Below are positions 1-52,629 of a stretch of 64,000 nt of DNA, in pieces. The position numbers were made by a program, and so were the translations under genes. Source of the stretch: Microthyrium microscopicum. Its lineage: Eukaryota; Ascomycota; Dothideomycetes; Microthyriales; Microthyriaceae. A model generated the notes under the pieces. The model was not told the DNA's origin. It saw only the letters and a program-made list of their open reading frames with translations, and made no database searches. The stretch spans positions 496,001 through 560,000 of the forward strand of contig MU004241.1 of NCBI GenBank assembly GCA_010405405.1, in the 5' to 3' direction. Numbering within the stretch: position 1 is the stretch's first letter; each line of letters begins with the position of its first letter.

Positions 1-859
1 TAGAGTGATTTTCGCAGTACGTTGAGGCAGTGTAGATCGTGGAAGACGGTGAGCTGGGTCACGTATAGATCGCTGTTTGGCAACTGGACAGTGTCCAAGG
101 TGAGTTGGCGCGCATCGTCTTTGGTAACCCAGCTGTTCCCAACTATTTCAGTGTCAGTGATGACAACTCGAGGAAAAGATGGTTCGTCTCACAGTCATAT
201 AGGTCTATCCATTTCTTGTCCGTTGCATTCGTGGGCAATCCGTCAGTGACGTTGCACATATATGGTGTTTTCTGGTAAAAGTTCTCCCCGAAGGTTGTGA
301 TCTCGTAGGATATCGCTGAGGAAGCGGGTGCTGGTTAGTTTGTTAGTCGAAAGCTAAGACTTTCTGCTATCAGATGTACTCAAGTGCTGCGAAGGACTTA
401 CAGAACAATTGCTGAGAGATATCTCCGCACATTGGGCTACCGTTGCGAAGGACATTTGAAAGGAGCATACCACTCAGGCAAATGATAACCGTGTAGAGAA
501 AAGTGAAGTGTAAAAATCTCGACGATGTCCTTGAAATCTGTCAGTATAAGTTAGGATCAATGCCAAGTCTATTTGAATAGACTGAGGTCTTTTCATGGTG
601 AAATTCCGAATGACTTCATGGAGGCCTTCTCTTCTTGCGGGAATTATAGCACTCGGACAGGAACACATGCTATGGGAGCCATGGAAGGTACTGAAACCCT
701 GCACTGGTTTTGCTGTTTGTCATGTCGTCACAACATGAGGTTTACCACAAGGAAAACTTACCATTTTCTCACTTCTTCAATGTGCGCAGAAACGCCTTTC
801 TCAATCCGAACATTGTTGGCTTCTTCATCTGGCAAAGCGGCATAGGTTTTCAAACTCAT
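1..859 (-). CDS. UstYa-family (DUF3328) oxidase, partial at left edge
   Basis: UstYa-type proteins are membrane-anchored copper-dependent oxidases that cyclise or hydroxylate ribosomal peptides such as ustiloxin and cyclochlorotine. I rebuilt this gene from four exons: 859-762, 529-402, 330-193 and 142-1 (open at the edge). The introns have GTAAGT, GTAAGT and GTGAGA donors; the first has a clear CTAAC branch site. The start at 859 gives a short acidic cytosolic head (MSLKTYAALPDEE). One membrane helix follows at about residues 38-57. Next come the family's SYE-x-TF stretch, a KKWIDLYDFG segment matching the usual W-x-DLY-x-G, and the first HxxHC motif (HDLHC, about residues 156-160) followed by LNVLRKSL. 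The second HxxHC motif and the C-terminus lie beyond the window. It is divergent from the peptide precursor at 1477, which strongly suggests that precursor is its substrate. Family assignment is secure; the reaction is inferred. Confidence 0.9.
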
Positions 860-1476
860 CGTTGGACCAATATCAGTTATCCAGACGCCCAATGCAGACA
901 ATTAACCAACAAACAATAGAGATCAGTATATTTTGACTGAACACTGGAAACGTCTGTAGCCTGTAGGCCCAGGGATCTAGAAGCATCCGCCTCGACATAA
1001 TTGGCCTTGAAATAGCTTAGTGACTCTTCGGCGTTTACTTTCTGATCAGTCACCTGCCAATTTAGATTTCTAGGCAGTTCCACGAGCTCTAATTTCACAT
1101 TAGTGTTCACAATCTCAGCCTAATGCTTCAAAAAGACCTAGCTCTTTCCCAGATAATGCTTTCGCCACTCCAAGCCAGGCTGCTTTGAGTATCGCCTTGC
1201 CGCAAAGGAATCCTCAGAGCCTCACAACACGCGCTAAATGTCACAATGGTGAGCCTCATGGCAGGCACGCTTTGAATGAATCACACGGTGACCACGTTCA
1301 GTGACAGCACCAAGCTAGTCCAAGAAAGGGAATGTCATCAATTCTAGGCACTACTTAAGCTCTTCTTCCACTCGAATTGTTCTTCATCCTTCATCCTCTT
1401 CCCGCACACTCTCATCCACAACACATCCAACCAATTCATCTGATCACTTATCGCATCTACATCCAAATCCTTCACC
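860..1476. promoter_or_regulatory. Divergent promoter between UstYa-like gene and peptide precursor
   Basis: This 617-bp gap separates the two outward-facing start codons at 859 (minus) and 1477 (plus), so it must hold both promoters. No convincing open frame survives here; the 877-1110 minus frame has no conserved features. The leader before 1477 is rich in C and T, as is usual just upstream of fungal start codons. I see no clear TATA box or known cluster-regulator site. The arrangement implies, but does not prove, co-regulation. Confidence 0.6.
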
Positions 1477-2468
1477 ATGAAGCTCAGCATTGCTGTTGCT
1501 TCTCTCACTCTCCAAGCCCTCGCGGTTTTGGCCGCCCCTGCTGGCACTCCAGCAGTCAAGGGTAAGTTGAAAATTCCATCTCCCTTAAGCATATGCTAAC
1601 TCCTCATTTAGCTATTCGTGCCTCTGTCGACGAGCTCAGCATCGCTGAGTGGAATGGTCTTGCCTTCAAACGCGATGAATTCGAATTGAAGTCCAAGGTT
1701 GGTGACAAGTCCAAGGTCGGCGACAAGTCCAAGGTCGGCGACAAATCCAAGGTTGGCGACAAATCCAAGGTCGGTGACAAGTCCAAGGTCGGCGACAAAT
1801 CCAAGGTCGGCGACAAATCCAAGGTCGGCGACAAATCCAAGGTCGGCGACAAGCGCGGATTCACTCACTACAACGGAGGCTGGGTCGCCAAGCTCAAGCC
1901 AAAAGAGAAGCGCGGATCTGCTCACTACGATGGAGGCTGGGTCGCCAAGCTCAAGGACAAGCGTACGGTCAACTACAACGACTGGAAAGCCAAGCTATTC
2001 ACCGATGAGAAGCGCAACGACTACAACGAGTTTGTGATTCCCATCGCAAAGTCCGGCCTTGCAAAGCGTGCTGACGACTACTACTGGAACATCAAGGTCA
2101 ACGAGCCTGAGGCCGAGAAACGCGACACCGAATCCCCATACATCAAGTGGACTCATGGCTTCAAAGAGAAGCGTGAACCTCGTGATTGGTCCAAGTGGTC
2201 TTTCGAGATTCCAGCTGACAAGAACTCTGAGGTTGAGAAGCGTGAGCCTCGGGATTGGTCCAAGTGGTCTTTCGAGATTCCAGCTGGCAAGGACTCTGAG
2301 GTTGAGAAGCGTGAGCCTCGGGATTGGTCCAAGTGGTCTTTTGAGATTCCAGCTGGCAAGAACTCTGAGGTTGAGAAGCGTGAGCCTCGGGATTGGTCCA
2401 AATGGTCTTTCGAGATTCCAGCCGGCGAGAAGCGCAACAACGAGATTTGCCCCGGTGACTACTGTTAA
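1477..2468 (+). CDS. Secreted multi-core Kex2-processed peptide precursor (candidate RiPP precursor)
   Basis: Two exons, 1477-1561 and 1612-2468, with a 50-nt intron (GTAAGT...TTTAG, CTAAC branch), give 313 residues. Residues 1-20 are a signal peptide (MKLSIAVASLTLQALAVLAA). There are 12 Lys-Arg sites, the recognition pair of the Golgi protease Kex2. After the first KR comes a lysine-rich block of nine SKVGDK hexamers (residues 56-109) without internal KR. Then come six different aromatic peptides of 17-19 residues, with inner parts HYNGGWVAKLK, HYDGGWVAKLK, NYNDWKAKLF, NDYNEFVIPIAK, DDYYWNIKV and PYIKWTHGFK. Four near-identical copies of EPRDWSKWSFEIPA follow (residues 217-303). The tail is NNEICPGDYC. 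This is the architecture of fungal Kex2-processed repeat proteins and dikaritin precursors. The adjacent UstYa gene supports the RiPP reading. Alternatives are an unmodified secreted peptide or repellent-type precursor. I recognise none of the core sequences. Confidence 0.88.
1692..1853 (+). repeat. Nine tandem 18-bp units encoding SKVGDK
   Basis: Nine perfect-length 18-bp units (TCCAAGGTCGGCGACAAG-like) lie in frame inside the precursor. They differ only at synonymous third positions (GTT/GTC, GGT/GGC, AAG/AAA), so the hexapeptide is identical every time. Unlike the downstream repeats they contain no KR pair until the block ends in DKR, so Kex2 should release the whole block as one piece. 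Confidence 0.95.
2175..2435 (+). repeat. Four tandem 69-bp core units (EPRDWSKWSFEIPA), the last shortened
   Basis: Units run 2175-2243, 2244-2312, 2313-2381 and 2382-2435. The first three each encode EPRDWSKWSFEIPA, then D/G-K-N/D-SEVEKR. The last lacks the KNSEV spacer and reads straight into GEKR. Nucleotide identity is very high, indicating recent duplication or homogenisation. The upstream aromatic units share only a pattern. Confidence 0.95.
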
Positions 2469-2525: not shown

Positions 2526-2560
2526 GTTTCTCTTGGAATGTCTGGGTTGTTTGGGGGATG

Positions 2561-13592: not shown

Positions 13593-15417
13593 TCATGACT
13601 CTGTCGTTGAGACTCTTTCTGATCCAATTGGCACTTTTGCTAGTTTTGTAATTGAAGTGCCGTCGTCAAGAATCTCTACGAATTCCTCCAGAGTGTACGA
13701 TTTCCACCTCGGTAGGAGAATGGTCCAAATATACCAATACAAAACACCGGCCAACATACTTCTCCAAGTTAGCATTGGCCCAGACACGCTCAGCATTTAC
13801 CTACATGCTAGTTCCCACAAAAGAGTAACTGACAGCCCCGAGATGTTCTCGCCAGTTGAGCCCATCTCGCGGTACAAAAGGTGCAGTGATAAGTGCCAAA
13901 GATAAGACAATACGTGCCCAAACTGCGGGTAAAAATGCTTTATAAGGTCTGTGTAGATCGGGTCGCTTGAACCGTAGCCATATCAAGCCAATGGCACCAG
14001 CAAGTGCGAAGAATTGACCCGGAAATCCTTCGACATCCAATATAAAAGAGTAGATGTTCCCAGTGGGAATGGTGATTACAAGAAGGGACGGGATATAGTG
14101 GGTAACAAGAGCACCCATGGGTGCATTGAAAGGTCTCGAAGAAGAAATGAAATGAGGTAAAGGTAAAACCCCCTGACGGGCGATTTCTTGGATGACGCGA
14201 GCCTTTGAAGAATAAGCATTCTCTCAAACGATCTTAGTGGTGACTTACGTGGCTGAAAGTTACAACCATGACATTGCCAACAGCACTTGTTGCTACACAC
14301 AGAGGAAGCAGAACTCTTCCGATGTTCGTACCAAAGATGCGCTCAAAGAACAACGCTGCAATGAGCTCTCCTGAGTTCTTGATGTCCTCGATCGGAACGA
14401 CCAGGAAATACGCAATGTTAACTAAAAGATACAGTATGCAAGCTGTGAGCAGCGCAGTAGAAGCTGCAGATTTCAGTGTTTTGACTGGGTTTTTGACCTC
14501 ATTGAGCACATTGTTGACGTTTTGAAGGCCTGCGTAGGAGTAGAACACCTTGAAAAGTGCGGTAGATGTAACTCCCCAGTTCCAGACGGAGCCTTCGAAT
14601 AGATAATCAACACTCAGCTTCCTGGATATCGTACTGAGGGACCTATCGTTGGATATCTCGTTAGAGCGTAGAAATACAACAAATAGGCTGGTCAGGACCA
14701 TGAAGATGACCAGTGCAATTTTCACCCAGCCAAGTACGTTTTGAATGAAAATACCTGCCTTGAGGAAGCAACTGTGGATAATAATGATACTGGTGAGCAA
14801 TCCGACCGCCAGGACTTTTTGTTCCCAAGGAGAAGGCTCGCGATCAAGCGCGAAGAGAACATATTCGCCAAATACGATGCAGTTTGAAGCAGTGAATCCA
14901 AGGAATATCGACTGGACCGCTATGAGTACAGAAGCGAGGAAGCGCGGATGACGGTATGTGAATTCCAAATAGACTTTGTCACCTTCCAAGAAGTCAGCTT
15001 TGTGCCAAAGCAGAATTGAGATCATTTACCGCCGGATCTAGGCAACATGCAACCATACTCCAGGCTAATGGCGAGCCCAAACCAGGACACGAGTGCTCCA
15101 ACTACCCACAAGATTAAAGTGATGCCGATGCTGCCCACTGAGCGCACGATAGCGCCTGGCGTTGCGAATATTCCGCTTCCAATGACTCGGGAGATGATTA
15201 GAATGTACGCGCTGCTCCATCCCAAAGTGCGACCTAAGACAGCTGTTTCTGGTATTACATCATTCTCGACCGATCGATCGAATGCGACAGCAATATTCTC
15301 TACCGTCTCTTCGTCATTCAAAGAGAGAACTGATTTTGCTATGCTGCTATAGCCACTGCTCGAAGTTGGTGAAGACGCCCATTCCAGCAACGGCTGTTGG
15401 TCAGGGGTTAATGACAT
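13593..15417 (-). CDS. APC-type amino acid permease (methionine-permease-like)
   Basis: Four exons, 15417-15030, 14982-14249, 14202-13805 and 13758-13593, give 561 residues. After a serine-rich cytosolic head, the first helix carries the APC glycine motif SRVIGSGIFATPGAI. The chain continues with about twelve hydrophobic helices, including YLEFTYRHPRFLASVL, FKVFYSYAGLQNVNNVLNEV and LLPLCVATSAVGNVMVV. The Y-x-YAG-x-x-NVN segment is typical of fungal high-affinity methionine/L-type permeases, so methionine or a bulky neutral amino acid is my guess for substrate. The tail EEFVEILDDGTS is cytosolic. The last donor is GTAGGT, followed by a CTAAC branch and a GAGAAG acceptor; reading through instead would hit a stop. 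Confidence 0.85.
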
Positions 15418-19670: not shown

Positions 19671-21177
19671 CTAAAATACTGCCGAGCTGAACCCAGCTTT
19701 ATACCATCTAGCCCAGATAAAAGCTAGGAAGCTGACCACATAACATAAGCCAGTAAACAAAGCCATCCCCCAATATCTCCCACCGGCTGCCTCCAAAAGC
19801 GCACCCGCAATTGGGATTCCTGTCAGAGAGCCCAATGCAACTACCGTATAACATGTTGCATAGTAGCGTCCATATTCCTCTGTCTCACATAACTGTCCAA
19901 TACACACTGGCGTTAGGCTAATGTTACTTCCAGACGCAAAGCCAAATAGAGCCGCATATGCTACTGCCAACGGTTTGACGGCCGCTGAACTTGAAGGCAG
20001 AATTGCGTCGGGCAGCCATAGTCCTAGTGTTGTGGCCATGCAGAGCGATAACATGATTATCATGGAGTTGAAGCGGCCTAGTTTGTCGGCCATTATACCA
20101 GGAAGGCAGCGGCCGAATGTACTCCCGGCGTTGAGTGCGGCGATCAGTGTGAATGGGAAGCTGGAGCTGGCGGATGTGGTGCCTGTTGCGATGATGAAAG
20201 AAGAGATGTATGTAATTGGGATGAAGAGGCCCCATTCATGCATGAATACCCCAAGGGTCGCGAGGGCAAAGGCGGGCTTCCGGTAGATCATCAAGTCTGG
20301 CATGATGGACTGCCCAGGTCTTGGTGGTAGGCGGGAGCTGACAAGAACAACGGCGATGGCGGTGAGGACGGCAAAGATAAGTGCTAGCACACGAGTTGCC
20401 CACGCAAAGCCAAGCATTGGAAATAGCTTTTGCAGCATGAGTGGAAAGATTACACCGCCGACTGAACCGCCTGTGGCTGCTATACCGGTGGCAGCTCCAC
20501 GTTTGGCATGGAAGTAGTGGCCAACTGCTGCGACTGATGGCGTAAAAATGAGAGAGCTGCCAGCGCCAGCTATGATGCCAATAATGAGCATAAATTGCCA
20601 GTATGTAGAAGCGATACCGATGAGCAGCATTGCAGTGACCAGACAGATGCTTCCAGAGAGTAGAAGGAGCCGGGGACCTTTGGCATCGAAAACGGGGCCA
20701 ATTATAAGACCACCACCGAAAGCGATGAAGATGTACATGCTGAAAATCCATCCGATTGTGGAATCACTGTAGGTGGACAGTTGATTTCGACTAATGTATT
20801 CTTGAAAAACGCCGACTGACTTGTATTAGATTTCAATCCATATCCAGACCAGATCAGGAATCAAATTGTACGGTTTTCGCAAACTTACTTGTATTCATGA
20901 ATCCAAAAGAAGCCAGCATTCCACTGAACGAACCTAATACAACTAGCCATGCTCGAAGTCCGCCTTCAGGGTAAATTGCCGCATCATTGGGAGAACCAGA
21001 AAAGGTTGGTAAAGAATGATCTTCATTGCTCTCCGAGTCCTTCTCCTTCACTACACTTGGCTCCATATCAACCTCATCAGAAGATTCTATCACATCTTTG
21101 CCAATCAGTTTAGTTTCTTTTGGAGAAGATCTAGCAGCATCTACCTCTGGTACATGCTGCTTGATACCAACCCCCAT
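19671..21177 (-). CDS. MFS transporter, monocarboxylate-porter (MCT) type
   Basis: Two exons, 21177-20889 and 20815-19671, give 477 residues from the chosen start MGVGIKQHVPEVDAARSS. A charged cytosolic head leads to YPEGGLRAWLVVLGSFSGML, the standard first helix of fungal MCT-like carriers (usually DGGxGWxVV). Exon 2 continues with GVFQEYISRNQLS and GWIFSMYIFIAFGGGLIIGPVFDAKGPR (the G-x-x-x-D-x-x-G-x-R loop), then helices to WARWYKAGF. The intron is placed at GTAAGT...GTCAG to keep the frame. The open frame extends upstream to 21345 with another hydrophobic stretch, so the N-terminus is uncertain. Substrate unknown; homologues carry small acids or are exporters beside metabolite clusters. 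Confidence 0.83.
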
Positions 21178-37338: not shown

Positions 37339-40300
37339 ATGGGGCCAGGAGTGGAGGATAGCACAGAAGCGGATGTGGGGGGTACAATAATCAACAAAGA
37401 GCAATTAGATGTCAAGATGCCAGCAAATGACCAACATACAGCACAAGACAGCGCCGATGCATCACCGCATGGATCTCCGTTGTTGTCGCCTACCGATGGA
37501 GACAACGAGGATGACTCCTCAAGGCCAATCGCGCCACTACAAAAACGACGTCGAGTTACGCGCGCTTGCGATGAATGCAGAAGGAAAAAGATCAAATGCG
37601 ATGGAAAACAACCTTGTACTCATTGTACAGTTTACAGCTATGGTAAGTCAGCCCTATCGTCTGGCGACAGCGAAGCTAGAGAAAATCATGACGCCGTCAG
37701 CAAATAGTCTGACTGTGTATAGAATGTACCTATGATCAACCCTCGAATCGACGTCGAAACGCGCCTCCCCAGTATGTCGAGAACCTTGAGAACCAGCTCA
37801 AGCGAGCCAATGCGATACTGCGCCTTATAGTTCCCAATGCAGACTTGAATGACCCTGACCTGGAAAATAAGCTTCGCCAGATTACCTTTTCACCCTCACC
37901 CATGCAAGCGACTCCATCGACAGTCAATGGCACACTTCCAGAAGAACCGGAGAGCACACAAGATGACAAACTTGAATCCATGGTTCAAGCAACTGGGCAA
38001 TTGGATCTGGACGAACAAGGCAACTTCGAATATCATGGCCATTCATCTGGTCTTCATTTTGTTAGGAGAATGCGCGAATCTCTTGGGGACGTGATGGGAC
38101 CTGAGCCAAGAAGTACTCCATTCATCAAATCTCGTCCCATGTCACAGGTATTTGACTCGCCTCGCTCAACAAGCGCATCTCCAAGAGATTCACAAGGAAA
38201 CTCGGATCTTCCACCCCTGGAAATGGCTCGAGAGATGTGCGATACAACTATCAATGACGCCGGCGCACTTCTTCGCTTTGTACACTATCCTAGTTTTGTG
38301 AAGCGTATGGAACGCCTCTATGAGACACCTCCAGAGCAATATGGTAACGATGAAAACTCATTTTTACCCTTGTTCTATGCAGTATTATCTGTTGCGACGC
38401 TATTTGCCAAAGATGATGGTAGCGGGCTTGAGCAGACTGGGTATGAAAATGCTATCGCAGAAGGGTATGAATTCCAAAACAAACGCAATAGTCGAAAACA
38501 ACTAACAAGTTTTAGCTTTGTGTATTTTAAACAATCTCGGCAGCTCATGGATATTGCTGATTGTCGCGATCTCACTCAACTACAGGCTGTTGTGTTTATG
38601 ATTTTATTCCTTCAATCATCTGCAAAACTCTCCGTTTGCTATGCATATATTGGAGTAGCTCTGCGATCGGCACTTCGAATGGGTCTACACAGGTCTTTCA
38701 CCGATAACTTTAATCCTATCGAATCAGAGACGAGGAAGAGATTGTTTTGGGTCATTCGCAAAATGGACACCTATGTTGGTGCGCTTCTGGGACTTCCACA
38801 CTCCTTGAACGACGACGAGATCGATCAGGATTATCCGCTCGAGGTTGATGATGAATACATCACCGAAACCAGAATTCTACCTATGCCTGAGGGTAGCATT
38901 TCCCTTCTGACCGCTTCTAATCATCACACAAAACTCGTCCAAATACTCGCAAAGGTTGTCAAGGTCATTTACCCTTCTCATGCATCAATCAAGCGCCATA
39001 TGCTTGGAAAGAATCTCAATACATATAGTGTTAGCTATGCCAAAATTGTCGAGATAGAACAAGATCTCCAGAATTGGCAAGATTCATTACCTCTAGCACT
39101 GCGACCAGGTGGAGAGGCAACAAGGGTAATGCAAAGGTACGTTAGGATTTCTAGAATCAAGTATGCAAGACTGACTGCTGCCTTAGGTGTCAGCACTTGT
39201 TGCGAATGGCATATGCTCACGCTCAGATGATGCTTTATCGGCCATTCCTTCACTACGTATCTCAGACAAGAGACTCGAAAAACGTGGACAAAAGGTCATA
39301 CGCTTGTGCGGCAGCTTGTGTAAGCGTGTCAAGAAATATTGTCAACATTGCAGTGGAGATGCAGAAAAGAGGTCTCCTTGGAGGCGCATATTGGTTTACC
39401 ATGTACACTACATTCTTTGCAATTCTCTCGTTGGTTTTTTACGCCCTGGAAAATCCCGAGGACAACTCCAGCCAAGATGTTCTCAAAGTCGCTAGAGAAG
39501 CCAAGGAGACCTTGGAGTCGCTCGCAAGGAGGAGCATGGCAGCTGATAGATGCGCTGCCACACTCAAAGTATAACTTCCCATTTACTTGACCCTGATAAG
39601 TACTGACTTTGAAAGGCTCTATTCCAACAACTACCCGACCACAAATTCAAGCGAACGCCTTCTGTTCGAAATACACATAAACGACGATCTTCTCCATCGC
39701 CATCACGAGAGCTGAAGCAAGAATCGCAAACTCATACACCAAACCTCTCTTCCGTTCCAAATCCCATGCAACCACAAAATTTCGACCTCGCCGACCTCCA
39801 GTACGCCAATGCCCACGGCTTCTACGAACCTATGGCCACATTCTCTCCCAGCAGCCAAGGTCCTAACACCTTCACCAACTCCCCTACAGTTCCCGAAAAC
39901 TACCAACCTGGCCTCGCCGACTTATCCGCAATGATGTTCCCCAATCCCGACCCCTTTGCTTATCCCACAAACCAACCAGCTGGCAGTGATGCCTCTTTCC
40001 CCGCCTACAAAGCACTCGACAGCTCCTCTTACGTTCCTTACTCACCCTCCACAGCACCGAATATGCGCCTGCACAATCTAGCTGGACCTCACCTCAATGG
40101 CTCTTCTTCCAATTCTTTCGTTCCACCTTCTTCTACCTTCATGATGCACTCTGGCGGTCCAGACTCTCGCTCCATGGATAACGAGGGCGACGTTGCCCTT
40201 CTGGGTCCTATGCCCATGTATCTCATGCAAGGTGATAGCTACATCAACGGGACCAATACCGCGCGACCAACCACAACCACCACAAACGGTACGCCCATCA

Positions 40301-48908: not shown

Positions 48909-51900
48909 TCAAGCAAACACATCGCTTACTATCCTGTCATTCTTCCTGGCTTTCACCCAGTCATCAAGCTCTTCTTGCGTCATATCCTTTCCTGCTTCTT
49001 TTGCCGACTCTTCCACTAATATTCTTGCGGCTTTGCCTACTGTTTGGGCGACATTCTTGCTTCCACAAATGTAGACCTTGGCCCCATCTTTCCAAAGCTC
49101 GATGATATCCTTTTTATTTGACAACATACGATCTTGAACATATCTGCAGCCTTGACTGCGTTCTGGAGCTCTGCTAAATGCATATCGGATATCCACAGCT
49201 CCAATGCGAGACCATTCTGCAAATTCGTCGAGATACAGTCCGTCGCCCGTAGGTGTTCGACATCCCACAAACAATAGTGCTGGTGCCAACTTTCTTTGAC
49301 CTTCCTTGATCATGACAGCTCTTTCTTGGATGAAGCCACGGAATGGAGCCAGTCCTGAGCCGGCGCAGAACATGATCAATGGAGTTTGCTCTGGAGTGGA
49401 GGGCAGACGAAAAACCTTGTTTGTTGACCTTACCGACACTAGTAATTGGTCTCCAGGTTTCAAGGAGCGAAGATACGTGCCAGTAACACCTTGGAACTTC
49501 TTCCCAGTGTTGGAGAGCGCAAGGGCGTCGATGACAGTGTAAGTTAACGTACAACATGTTGGATCGACGAGTGGAGATGATGAAATGGAATAATGGCGCG
49601 GCCTGAGTGGTGAAAGCAGGCTCAAGTATTTTGAGAAATCGGTAGCAAGCGTCGGATTCTGCTCGAGAAATTCCAGTATTGACGTGCGACGATCAAGCAT
49701 CTCCTGGAGAGACTTCTCGTCACCGAGCACCAAATTCAGTTCCTCCTTTTCAGATGCGTTGGTAGCATCTTCTATCAAAGCTTCGATGACCTTTTTGAAG
49801 ACGGTGATTAGAAACTTTTCTATAACGACAACAAAGAGGCATACTTACTCGTCGAGTGACTGGATCAGATAATTCGACATATCCCTTAAGCAACTCAGAA
49901 ACTGGTAATGGAGAATCAGTCGGCAGAGTTGTTGTTCCAGAGTCCTTGATCGTGATGATAGCATCCCACGGCAAATTAAACCTTTGGATAACTCTTTTAA
50001 CAATCCCCTCAGGGTTCATCGGAAGAACGGCCAAATAATCACCAACTTGATAGGTCATACCAGTCGCAAGTTTGATCATCGTATGCCATTTCTCCGGTTG
50101 ACCTGCAGAGGTAAGTCGACGTGCTTCGACGACTTGGCCCCATTTGAGATTCTGCTGTAAGTGTGTATCTCTGCCCTGGTGAGAAATCTGTATATCGAGA
50201 GTGGGAACCTTCATCTTCTGTGGAATAGGATTGCTTTGCCTGGGTGATATAGACAGCAAAGCCGGCCACATTATCTTTTCAGTCCACGATGCAAAATCAC
50301 CGAACATGTCACCAGACGCTGCATCAGAAGACCCTCGCTCGCAAATTCGAGATGCTCCGAGTTTGAGCAGCGCTTCATCAATCAAAGTTGGGATCCTTTG
50401 ATAGGTGGCACTCCAATCATGATGACCACATCCGAAGACAGCGAAGTTGACACCATTAAAGATATCTGGATCCTTGAGATGTTCCATATATGCTACAAAA
50501 CGAGCTGCATTGTCCGGTGGCTGGCCCTCATACGACGCAGTGATGATGATGACAGGTTCGTCCGTGGGTAGATTGCCAGTCATGGCATCCAAATCTACAA
50601 CTGAGGACTGGTAGCCTTGTTGGCGTGCTTGCGATGCTACCTTTTGAGCTAGAGCTTGACAAGTTCCTGTGTTTGATCCAAAAGCTACCGTAATGCTAAG
50701 TTTATTGGTGCTTTCGTCGGATTGGTTCTCTTGAGGGATGGAAAGGCTTTTGTATATTGACGATGCGGCCGTTCCAACTACCAGTCTGGGAATTGTTAGC
50801 ATAGAATAATTGACACGATGTTTGCGTCAGATCAAGAACAAGGTAGCCAGCTCATCGACAAAATAAACAACGCACTCCCATCAACCACGGTGTCTCGCAT
50901 CGCACCTCATGGCAAGAAGATGCTTTGAATCCCAGCGCACTCGATGGGAGCGTGTCACTGATTTGTTAACTGGTTGATAGCCATGTTTTGACGTAAAGCG
51001 CTCGGCAAACATGAAAAGATTTTGAAAAAGTGACTTCCTTACCTTTCTTGAAGAGAATTCACAGTAACACCTTTCCTAAGAGTTGGACGAATGTAGAAGT
51101 CTTTTGGCTTGATCGTCAGTGTTTGGACTATTTTCATCTCGTAGCTGGGATCGTCCATCGCAACGTCGAAGTTCTGTAAGATCAGAGCAACGGCCAGGAC
51201 AGCTTCCTGAATTGCAAATGAACGGCCAATGCAACCTCGCAGGCCAGTGCCAAATGGCTAGTATACATCAGCAACATGATTCAATAATAAATTGGACTCG
51301 AGCTTACCTTCCAGGCATTTCTTGGAATTTTTTCCATGTGCTCGTCCAGCATTCGCTCTGGCTTGAATTCTTCCACATCCACTCCCCAGACTTCAGGATC
51401 TCGTTGTATCTTAGTTAATAGACACACTATTCCTGAGCCTTCCCGTGGTAGCTCGTATTTTCGATCTAGTCTTGGAGGATCTTCTTTGTTCTCTGGCCTC
51501 GGTCCTCTAGTGATAGCAGGAGCGGTCGGAGTGAGTCTCAACGTCTCCTTCAGCAACGCGTGCACGTATATCAGCTCACTGAGGTGTTTCGATGTGATCT
51601 TCTCCTTTCCGACTACCCGATCGACTTCTTGTCGAGCAGCGAACAGCGTTGAAGGATTTTTGAGCATATTTAGCAACGCGAAGGACAAGAGGCCGGAAGT
51701 AGTCTCGTGGCCTACAAAGAGTGTTAGCCTCACACATATCTCAGAATGCAAGTTTGTACGATACTGACCTGCGACCAGAAAAGTTATCATGTTTGCAGCC
51801 ACAAGCTCATCTCTCATCGTTTCTCCCGTTGTTGGATCTTTGCCATATATCATAGCATTAAGCAAGTCTTTTTTGTCTGTGGGATTATCTTTGCGATGCT

Positions 51901-52629
51901 TAACCAGCTGCTCTGATAAGTTTTTCTGATATTGGGCATCTTTTCTCAACTGCTCGTTTGTGGACGGCAACAGCTTTTTCAACATAGATGAAAGCTGTTG
52001 AGAATTGCTCCGGTTCAAAAGCAAGTTTGACATGGCGGTGACAAATGGGTGAGCCTGACCTTGCCCTTGATAGAAAGAGTTGAATCGAAAGTCCATTGCA
52101 CACAGCGCAATAGTGTCAAAAGTAAGGTTGCTCATTTCCTTGCTGACCAGGACTCGATTCGCACCGCTATCTTTCCGAGCCCATAGCATCACCATTTGAC
52201 TTGCTATGTCATACATCTCTGTCACGAAAGCTTAGTAGGGTACTGGATAAGTTCAAAGTGATGTAACCTACCATCGAACATCTCTTCAATAGCTAATGGA
52301 CCGAAAGCTGGCATCAGTATCTTATGAGCTTGAATCCAATCTGGGCTTTGTGAACTTCTCGCGCTGAACAGGCCCTCTGCTGGCGGAGTTGGTCCAGAAA
52401 CGAGTGCTGCTGGAGGTACTTTCCAGAACCGATTCTCGTCACACAGCTCATCAAAGAGTTTGAAGCTTGTGACAATGATTCTTTCCTTTCCACGCATGGT
52501 GATTTTATAAATCGGACCGTAAATGTCTGCAAGACGTTCTAAGGCATGTATCGGTACATCATCCTGGAGATCAAGAAGATTGCCTATCAAAGGTAGTGGC
52601 TGTGGCCTAGAATACGTTAGTCTAACCAT
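48909..52629 (-). CDS. Self-sufficient cytochrome P450-reductase fusion, CYP505 family
   Basis: Six exons, 52629-52272, 52218-51769, 51711-51308, 51257-51043, 50785-49849 and 49790-48909, give 1081 residues. It is a soluble fusion that hydroxylates fatty acids near the omega end or modifies pathway intermediates. P450 part: PLPLIGNLLDL start, AGHETTSGLLSFAL (oxygen-binding helix), KETLRLTP (ExxR) and the haem loop PFGTGLRGCIGRSFAIQE. Reductase part: FMN domain with FGSNTGTCQALAQK, ASYEGQPPDNAARF and FGCGHHDWSATYQ. The FAD/NADPH domain has RHYSISSSPLVDP, CAGSGLAPFRGFIQERA, GCRYVQDRM and VYICGSKNVA. Length and order match CYP505. The 257-nt fourth intron is long for this genome because of an inverted-repeat insertion. 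A Zn2Cys6 regulator faces it upstream. Confidence 0.93.
50866..50965. repeat. Inverted-repeat insertion inside CYP505 intron 4
   Basis: Within the intron 51042-50786, ACAACGCACTCCCATCAACC and the downstream reverse complement ACACGCTCCCATCGAGTGCG form imperfect arms around a roughly 35-bp loop. Limits are approximate. The shared CTCCCATC core matches the arms of the other hairpin elements listed here. Confidence 0.5.

Follow-up and report, generated by a model that had tools for sequence, protein, structure and literature searches.

A precursor gene and an oxidase gene arranged head to head

The window analysed here, a stretch of 64,000 nucleotides (C12:496001-560000) from a genome of 36.9 Mb in 20 contigs, carries at its left edge two divergent genes, one for a KEP-type precursor and one for a UstYa/DUF3328 protein. 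The features of the locus are listed in window coordinates, with negative positions lying to the left of position 1.

about -1411 to -1073: 113-aa frame with no Pfam match, the nearest frame on the left
-207 to -436 (C12:495564), minus strand: exon 5 of the UstYa gene, left of the window
1 to 859, minus strand: 5′ part of the UstYa/DUF3328 gene (exons 859-762, 529-402, 330-193 and 142 to -85)
860 to 1476, no strand: divergent intergenic stretch of 617 bases between the two start codons
1477 to 2468, plus strand: KEP-type precursor gene (exon 1, 1477-1561; intron, 1562-1611; exon 2, 1612-2468 including the stop)
1477 to 1536, plus strand: signal-peptide-like N-terminus MKLSIAVASLTLQALAVLAA (Kyte-Doolittle mean 1.96, residues 4-19)
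1692 to 1853, plus strand: nine tandem SKVGDK hexapeptides between the first and second KR, a candidate spacer or leader
1857 to 2168, plus strand: six core units of five kinds, HY(N/D)GGWVAKLK (twice), NYNDWKAKLF, NDYNEFVIPIAKSGLA, DDYYWNIKV and SPYIKWTHGF
2175 to 2429, plus strand: four copies of the 14-residue core EPRDWSKWSFEIPA, with variable tails
2544 to 2557, plus strand: 3′ string GGGTTGTTTGGGGG, 76 bases past the precursor stop codon (94 past that of the C9 relative described below)

The precursor is 313 aa long and its gene has a single GT-AG intron of 50 nt. Its hydrophobic N-terminus, with an Ala-rich end, is followed by a short pro-region, the SKVGDK array, ten KR-separated units and, after the last KR, a tail of ten residues (NNEICPGDYC). 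The ten units lie between the KR at residues 109-110 and the KR at residues 302-303, and every one of them contains aromatic residues. The four EPRDWSKWSFEIPA units, in tandem between KR sites, supply the repeat element of a KEP in the sense of Umemura, for which three or more repeats of 8 aa or longer must be flanked by dibasic sites. The 12 KR sites exceed the count in every one of 20,000 random permutations of the 294 residues that follow residue 19 (mean 2.8, maximum 10). All nine SKVGDK copies are the same in protein, their codon differences being synonymous only, and the final K of the array is the K of the second KR. As the array lacks an internal dibasic site, kexin would release it as a single long repeat peptide.

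The UstYa gene is complete in five exons, and extends 436 bases beyond the left edge of the window. The final 273-aa model agrees in every letter with the database protein P0001; the Pfam match to PF11807 (145.3 bits against a cut-off of 25, E=3.1e-42) was scored on an earlier 267-aa model whose exon ends differ slightly. The HxxHC(x)nHxxHC signature is intact in both halves, with HDLHC at residue 156, inside the window, and HYDHC at residue 196, left of position 1 and near the junction of exons 4 and 5. In the family member CctR, a DUF3328 hydroxylase, this pair of motifs forms a two-copper site, and motif mutants are dead; purified, copper-loaded protein has been described for CctR and for a truncated AprY (PMC12435403). 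Six of 400 candidate homologues fell at E<=0.001, namely P0001 itself and five proteins from other fungi (Xylariales sp. PMI_506, Rhizodiscina lignyota and Coleophoma cylindrospora among them), and the motifs are kept in all rows of the six-protein alignment except P0005, in which the first motif reads HQLRC. An AlphaFold model built from these six sequences placed the motifs in helices, at a mean pLDDT of 46.6 that is too low to judge the site, and solved structures yielded just two carboxypeptidase sequences (E=0.33 and 0.41). The 617 bases between the two start codons presumably serve as a shared promoter region.

A first-pass annotation of the window had described 12 KR sites and ten aromatic units beside a DUF3328 protein with an HxxHC motif. 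Its counts were reproduced and its coordinates are correct for what the window contains, the remainder of the oxidase gene and the second motif lying outside. The SKVGDK array is an addition to that description. The signal peptide and membrane anchor that it also named are retained here as hydropathy features: a signal-like hydrophobic N-terminus on the precursor, and one anchor-like hydrophobic stretch at about residues 38-61 of UstYa.

Core peptides of the precursor

In order, the units of the precursor are GFTHYNGGWVAKLKPKE, GSAHYDGGWVAKLKD, TVNYNDWKAKLFTDE, NDYNEFVIPIAKSGLA, ADDYYWNIKVNEPEAE and DTESPYIKWTHGFKE, and then four EPRDWSKWSFEIPA. Ten core peptides of six kinds are therefore encoded; the calculated [M+H]+ of a linear unit is, for TVNYNDWKAKLFTDE, 1843.886. 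The first-pass annotation had regarded several different peptides from one precursor as unusual, whereas multi-core precursors with differing cores are normal for the class (PMC7317419, PMC9233826). Compared pair by pair, the four 14-residue EPRDWSKWSFEIPA cores differ by 15 synonymous codon changes and 0 non-synonymous ones, while their tails vary; the cores are under protein-level constraint.

The aromatic residues are concentrated in the core part of the precursor (28 of 173 residues, vs 3 of 109 ahead of the cores), and of the six core kinds five contain Tyr. A survey covering 1,461 strains recorded Tyr-bearing repeats in 65.6% of the KEPs linked to a DUF3328 gene and in 38.2% of the others (PMC7329392). 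An aromatic-x-x-aromatic spacing was present in six of eight core kinds drawn from this precursor and its C9 relative, against a shuffle mean of 1.9, and was reached by a fraction of 0.0022 of shuffles in a post hoc test, the pattern having been picked after viewing the sequences and each of the eight kinds being represented by one hand-chosen example. The spacing is exemplified by YNDW, YNEF, YIKW, WSKW, FVTW and FTHY, the last of which is found in just one of two copies. The same shuffles of these eight kinds gave no enrichment for the spacings i+1, i+2, i+4 and i+5. Counted over all units, which are not independent of each other, the i+3 spacing was found in 8 of 10 in the window (mean 2.5) and in 10 of 12 at C9 (mean 1.6). 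The spacing may mark a pair of modified residues. Because it was tested after being noticed, and because DUF3328-linked KEPs contain Trp no more often than other KEPs do (20.5% vs 24.5%; PMC7329392), we treat it only as a lead to the oxidase target.

Ten strings, nine from the cores of three precursors and one from the SKVGDK array, were absent from the literature texts searched, figures and supplements lying outside that search. In the protein collection, none of 8,000 candidates scored with the full precursor sequence, a list that the SKVGDK array may have crowded, reached E<=0.01, and with the repeats collapsed none of 597 candidates reached E<=10. This is weak evidence that the precursor may lack homologues elsewhere, and it fits the survey, in which 2,560 of 7,878 KEPs were without a homologue (PMC7329392).

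Further precursor genes in the genome

A search of the genome with the repeat-collapsed precursor found one other place, C9:1650719-1650955 (E=7.2e-5, 45% identity). The KEP gene there encodes 222 aa, has two introns, and carries FVTWSSL-type cores, two copies of DYSPNEWLTAV and one INYNDWKAKLF. The core NYNDWKAKLF is thus common to both precursors, with codons that differ at four of ten positions by synonymous changes only, and the other cores are unlike. At the DNA level, the two loci have just one match with E under 0.01, a 47-base stretch around the shared core (83%, E=6e-9). Past the stop codons, the 14-mer GGGTTGTTTGGGGG has two exact copies in the 36.9-Mb genome, one at each locus, against 0 for its reversed control. 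A local alignment of the 3′ regions scored 31, a value that 29 random stretches in 20,000 also reach (a first control of 2,000 peaked at 32), and when the C12 3′ region was searched as DNA against the whole genome it recovered itself alone and not C9. The 3′ similarity appears supportive of kinship and is not decisive; with the shared core, we consider it probable that the two precursors are paralogues.

The C9 precursor lies head to head (locus C9:1648444-1650973) with a protein bearing HIAHC and HAGHC motifs and one hydrophobic stretch. As this locus was found by precursor sequence and not by way of the oxidases, it offers independent support for the pairing of KEPs with HxxHC proteins. The C9 partner resembles UstYa in motif and layout and lies outside the Pfam model of the family: no match to PF11807 was listed up to E=10, and a profile comparison of this protein and two C15 relatives with a UstYa alignment was not significant (probability 1%, E=0.055). 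Four other relatives of the C9 partner were found in the genome at E<=1e-8, two of them in a cluster on C15; against PF11807, one C15 relative gave a match below the cut-off (E=0.13) and one gave none.

A third KEP, with five EGVVTWADVSKR repeats, is found at C15:636552-636945 in the midst of four genes that have two HxxHC motifs each. The region C15:633353-641113 thus has the appearance of a larger dikaritin-like cluster.

Among 11 UstYa places scanned with a filter of our own over about 10 kb to either side, and further around the window (one of 12, at C7:755 kb, was left out), a KEP lay close by at two, C12 and C15, so that a UstYa gene alone says little. Three other KEP-like frames near UstYa genes were discarded on inspection: at C8:834 kb a pair of Lys-rich frames that overlap, and a single frame at window positions 39187-39492.

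Gene neighbourhood

The first-pass annotation had expected the rest of a cluster (a second UstYa, a methyltransferase, a peptidase and a transporter) to the left of position 1, and proposed leftward extension and annotation of the neighbours. No further cluster genes emerged from the open frames of 30 kb of left flank, 11 of which were compared with Pfam. The order on the left is instead the 113-aa frame, an N-myristoyltransferase, which is the nearest recognised gene, and an epimerase-type gene. A piece of an OPT transporter, the sole transporter among the scanned left frames, lies some 20-21 kb away, with MED6 between it and the pair. On the right, the nearest recognised gene encodes a TLDc protein, and the scanned frames further on include SUR7, an amino-acid permease, an acyltransferase, an MFS protein, a decarboxylase and an RNA-polymerase subunit. 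The permease at 14237-15025 and the MFS protein at 19674-20825, the transporter-type matches closest to the pair on that side, are taken to be unrelated to it.

Pfam coverage comprised the 11 left-flank frames, in which the OPT and GH127 genes are represented in part, and 20 of 29 large non-overlapping frames of the window. Within the scanned frames, no methyltransferase, peptidase or transporter stands beside the pair. No tyrosinase match was found on contig C12 (16 matching pieces genome-wide), and the one kexin-type match in the genome is on C1. As far as scanned, therefore, this is a two-gene locus.

Two features of the surrounding DNA are recorded in their own right. Some 20-24 kb to the left of position 1, an arabinofuranosidase-type gene of family GH127 lies near the OPT oligopeptide transporter, and frames for P450, flavodoxin, FAD-binding and NAD-binding domains follow one another in the order of a P450-reductase fusion at window positions 48912-52231 on the minus strand.

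Proposed function and alternative explanations

Our data are best explained by a two-gene dikaritin-type RiPP locus, in which a KEP precursor and a UstYa oxidase probably work with the cell's own kexin. The pairing of a RiPP-type precursor with UstYa, already proposed in the first-pass annotation, gains support from the KR array, the PF11807 match and the divergent adjacency of the genes. Under this model, the putative signal peptide would carry the precursor into the secretory pathway, where general kexin would cut after KR and the basic or acidic tails would be trimmed to give the ten cores; alternatively, the cores might be modified while still joined, before their release. A membrane-anchored UstYa with a binuclear-copper HxxHC...HxxHC site would oxidise core aromatics in the secretory pathway, most likely by cross-linking aromatic residues of the cores, and the modified peptides would then be secreted. 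A precursor and a DUF3328 protein with two HxxHC motifs place the locus inside the newer definition of dikaritins, in which DUF3328 defines the class, and outside the older five-gene definition of Ding, which asks for a tyrosinase, a methyltransferase, several DUF3328 proteins and a transporter or peptidase (PMC12048977); the neighbours here are N-myristoyltransferase, TLDc, epimerase-type and small unmatched frames.

The cores could instead be secreted as linear, unmodified peptides with a signal, pheromone-like or surface-active role, the UstYa neighbour acting elsewhere. We consider this unlikely, even though many KEP-derived peptides are linear (PMC9769878), the four EPRDW units start with X-Pro of the dipeptidyl-aminopeptidase type (a rule from PMC9769878, matched by eye), and 6,120 of the 7,878 KEPs in the survey have no DUF3328 gene nearby (PMC7329392). 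In that survey the 22% of KEPs with such a gene nearby mostly have it adjacent, and pheromone-type KEPs are almost never accompanied by one (PMC7329392). Here a UstYa gene is divergent from the precursor, an HxxHC protein is likewise placed beside the C9 precursor, and the aromatic residues are gathered in the cores, all of which argues against linear end products.

Should the oxidase act on the cores, it might hydroxylate or singly oxidise residues with no ring closure. CctR, the DUF3328 hydroxylase, is a precedent for such a reaction (PMC12435403), and the two reactions look alike in sequence. CctR also shows the family at work in non-ribosomal pathways, a point against the RiPP reading itself. 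The DUF3328 proteins of the ustiloxin, phomopsin and asperipin pathways are known for, and required for, cyclisation (PMC7329392, PMC9233826), and single-residue oxidation consequently seems to us rather improbable. It is very improbable that the pair is what remains of a once larger cluster, now silent or in decay, as might be supposed from the lack of visible tailoring genes and from its position between housekeeping-type genes: both genes are open, their introns are regular, and the repeated cores and the core shared with C9 have diverged by synonymous changes only.

As a two-gene dikaritin-type locus, the pair would be a near-minimal system of one precursor and one oxidase, with kexin supplied by the host cell's general machinery, and its small size would make it a clean test of a lone UstYa acting on Trp/Tyr-rich cores. 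The C9 relative, with its shared core and different HxxHC partner, would allow the joint evolution of core sequence and oxidase specificity to be asked about. Less expected was the finding of two probably related precursors with one conserved core, otherwise unlike cores, and partners from two apparently different HxxHC families. We offer, as a doubtful proposal, that the two loci are paralogues whose cores were almost all replaced, NYNDWKAKLF alone being kept, under partners from two HxxHC families (UstYa proper and one outside Pfam), and that the shared aromatic spacing could be the recognition and cross-linking unit of a Trp-type class of dikaritins. If this were true, the two loci would show precursors diversifying in nature under two oxidases.

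Comparison with known systems

The asperipin core is a hexapeptide, and an FxIP string that we take to occur in an epichloecyclin core is also present in a core here. The epichloecyclin system of Epichloe (gigA) likewise combines a multi-core precursor that gives several peptides with one DUF3328 gene in a small cluster; that cluster has four genes including its own kexB, whereas there are two here and the sole kexin-type match lies on another contig, C1 (PMC7317419). The asperipin-2a pathway resembles this locus in using a single DUF3328 protein (PMC7329392). Asperipin is one bicyclic product with two Tyr linkages, in contrast to the six Trp-rich core kinds encoded here (PMC9233826).

The phomopsin and ustiloxin systems share KR-separated cores and DUF3328 proteins with this locus, and their signal peptide has a putative counterpart in the precursor here, but they differ from it in that here no tyrosinase, methyltransferase or peptidase was seen beside the genes and the DUF3328 gene is single. 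FVIPI, in one of the cores, is similar to the phomopsin query YVIPID (PMC7099791), a likeness of five residues that is weak evidence. The broader architecture of KEPs, an N-terminal signal followed by repeats between dibasic sites (PMC7329392), is matched by the precursor described here, in which the signal is a putative one.
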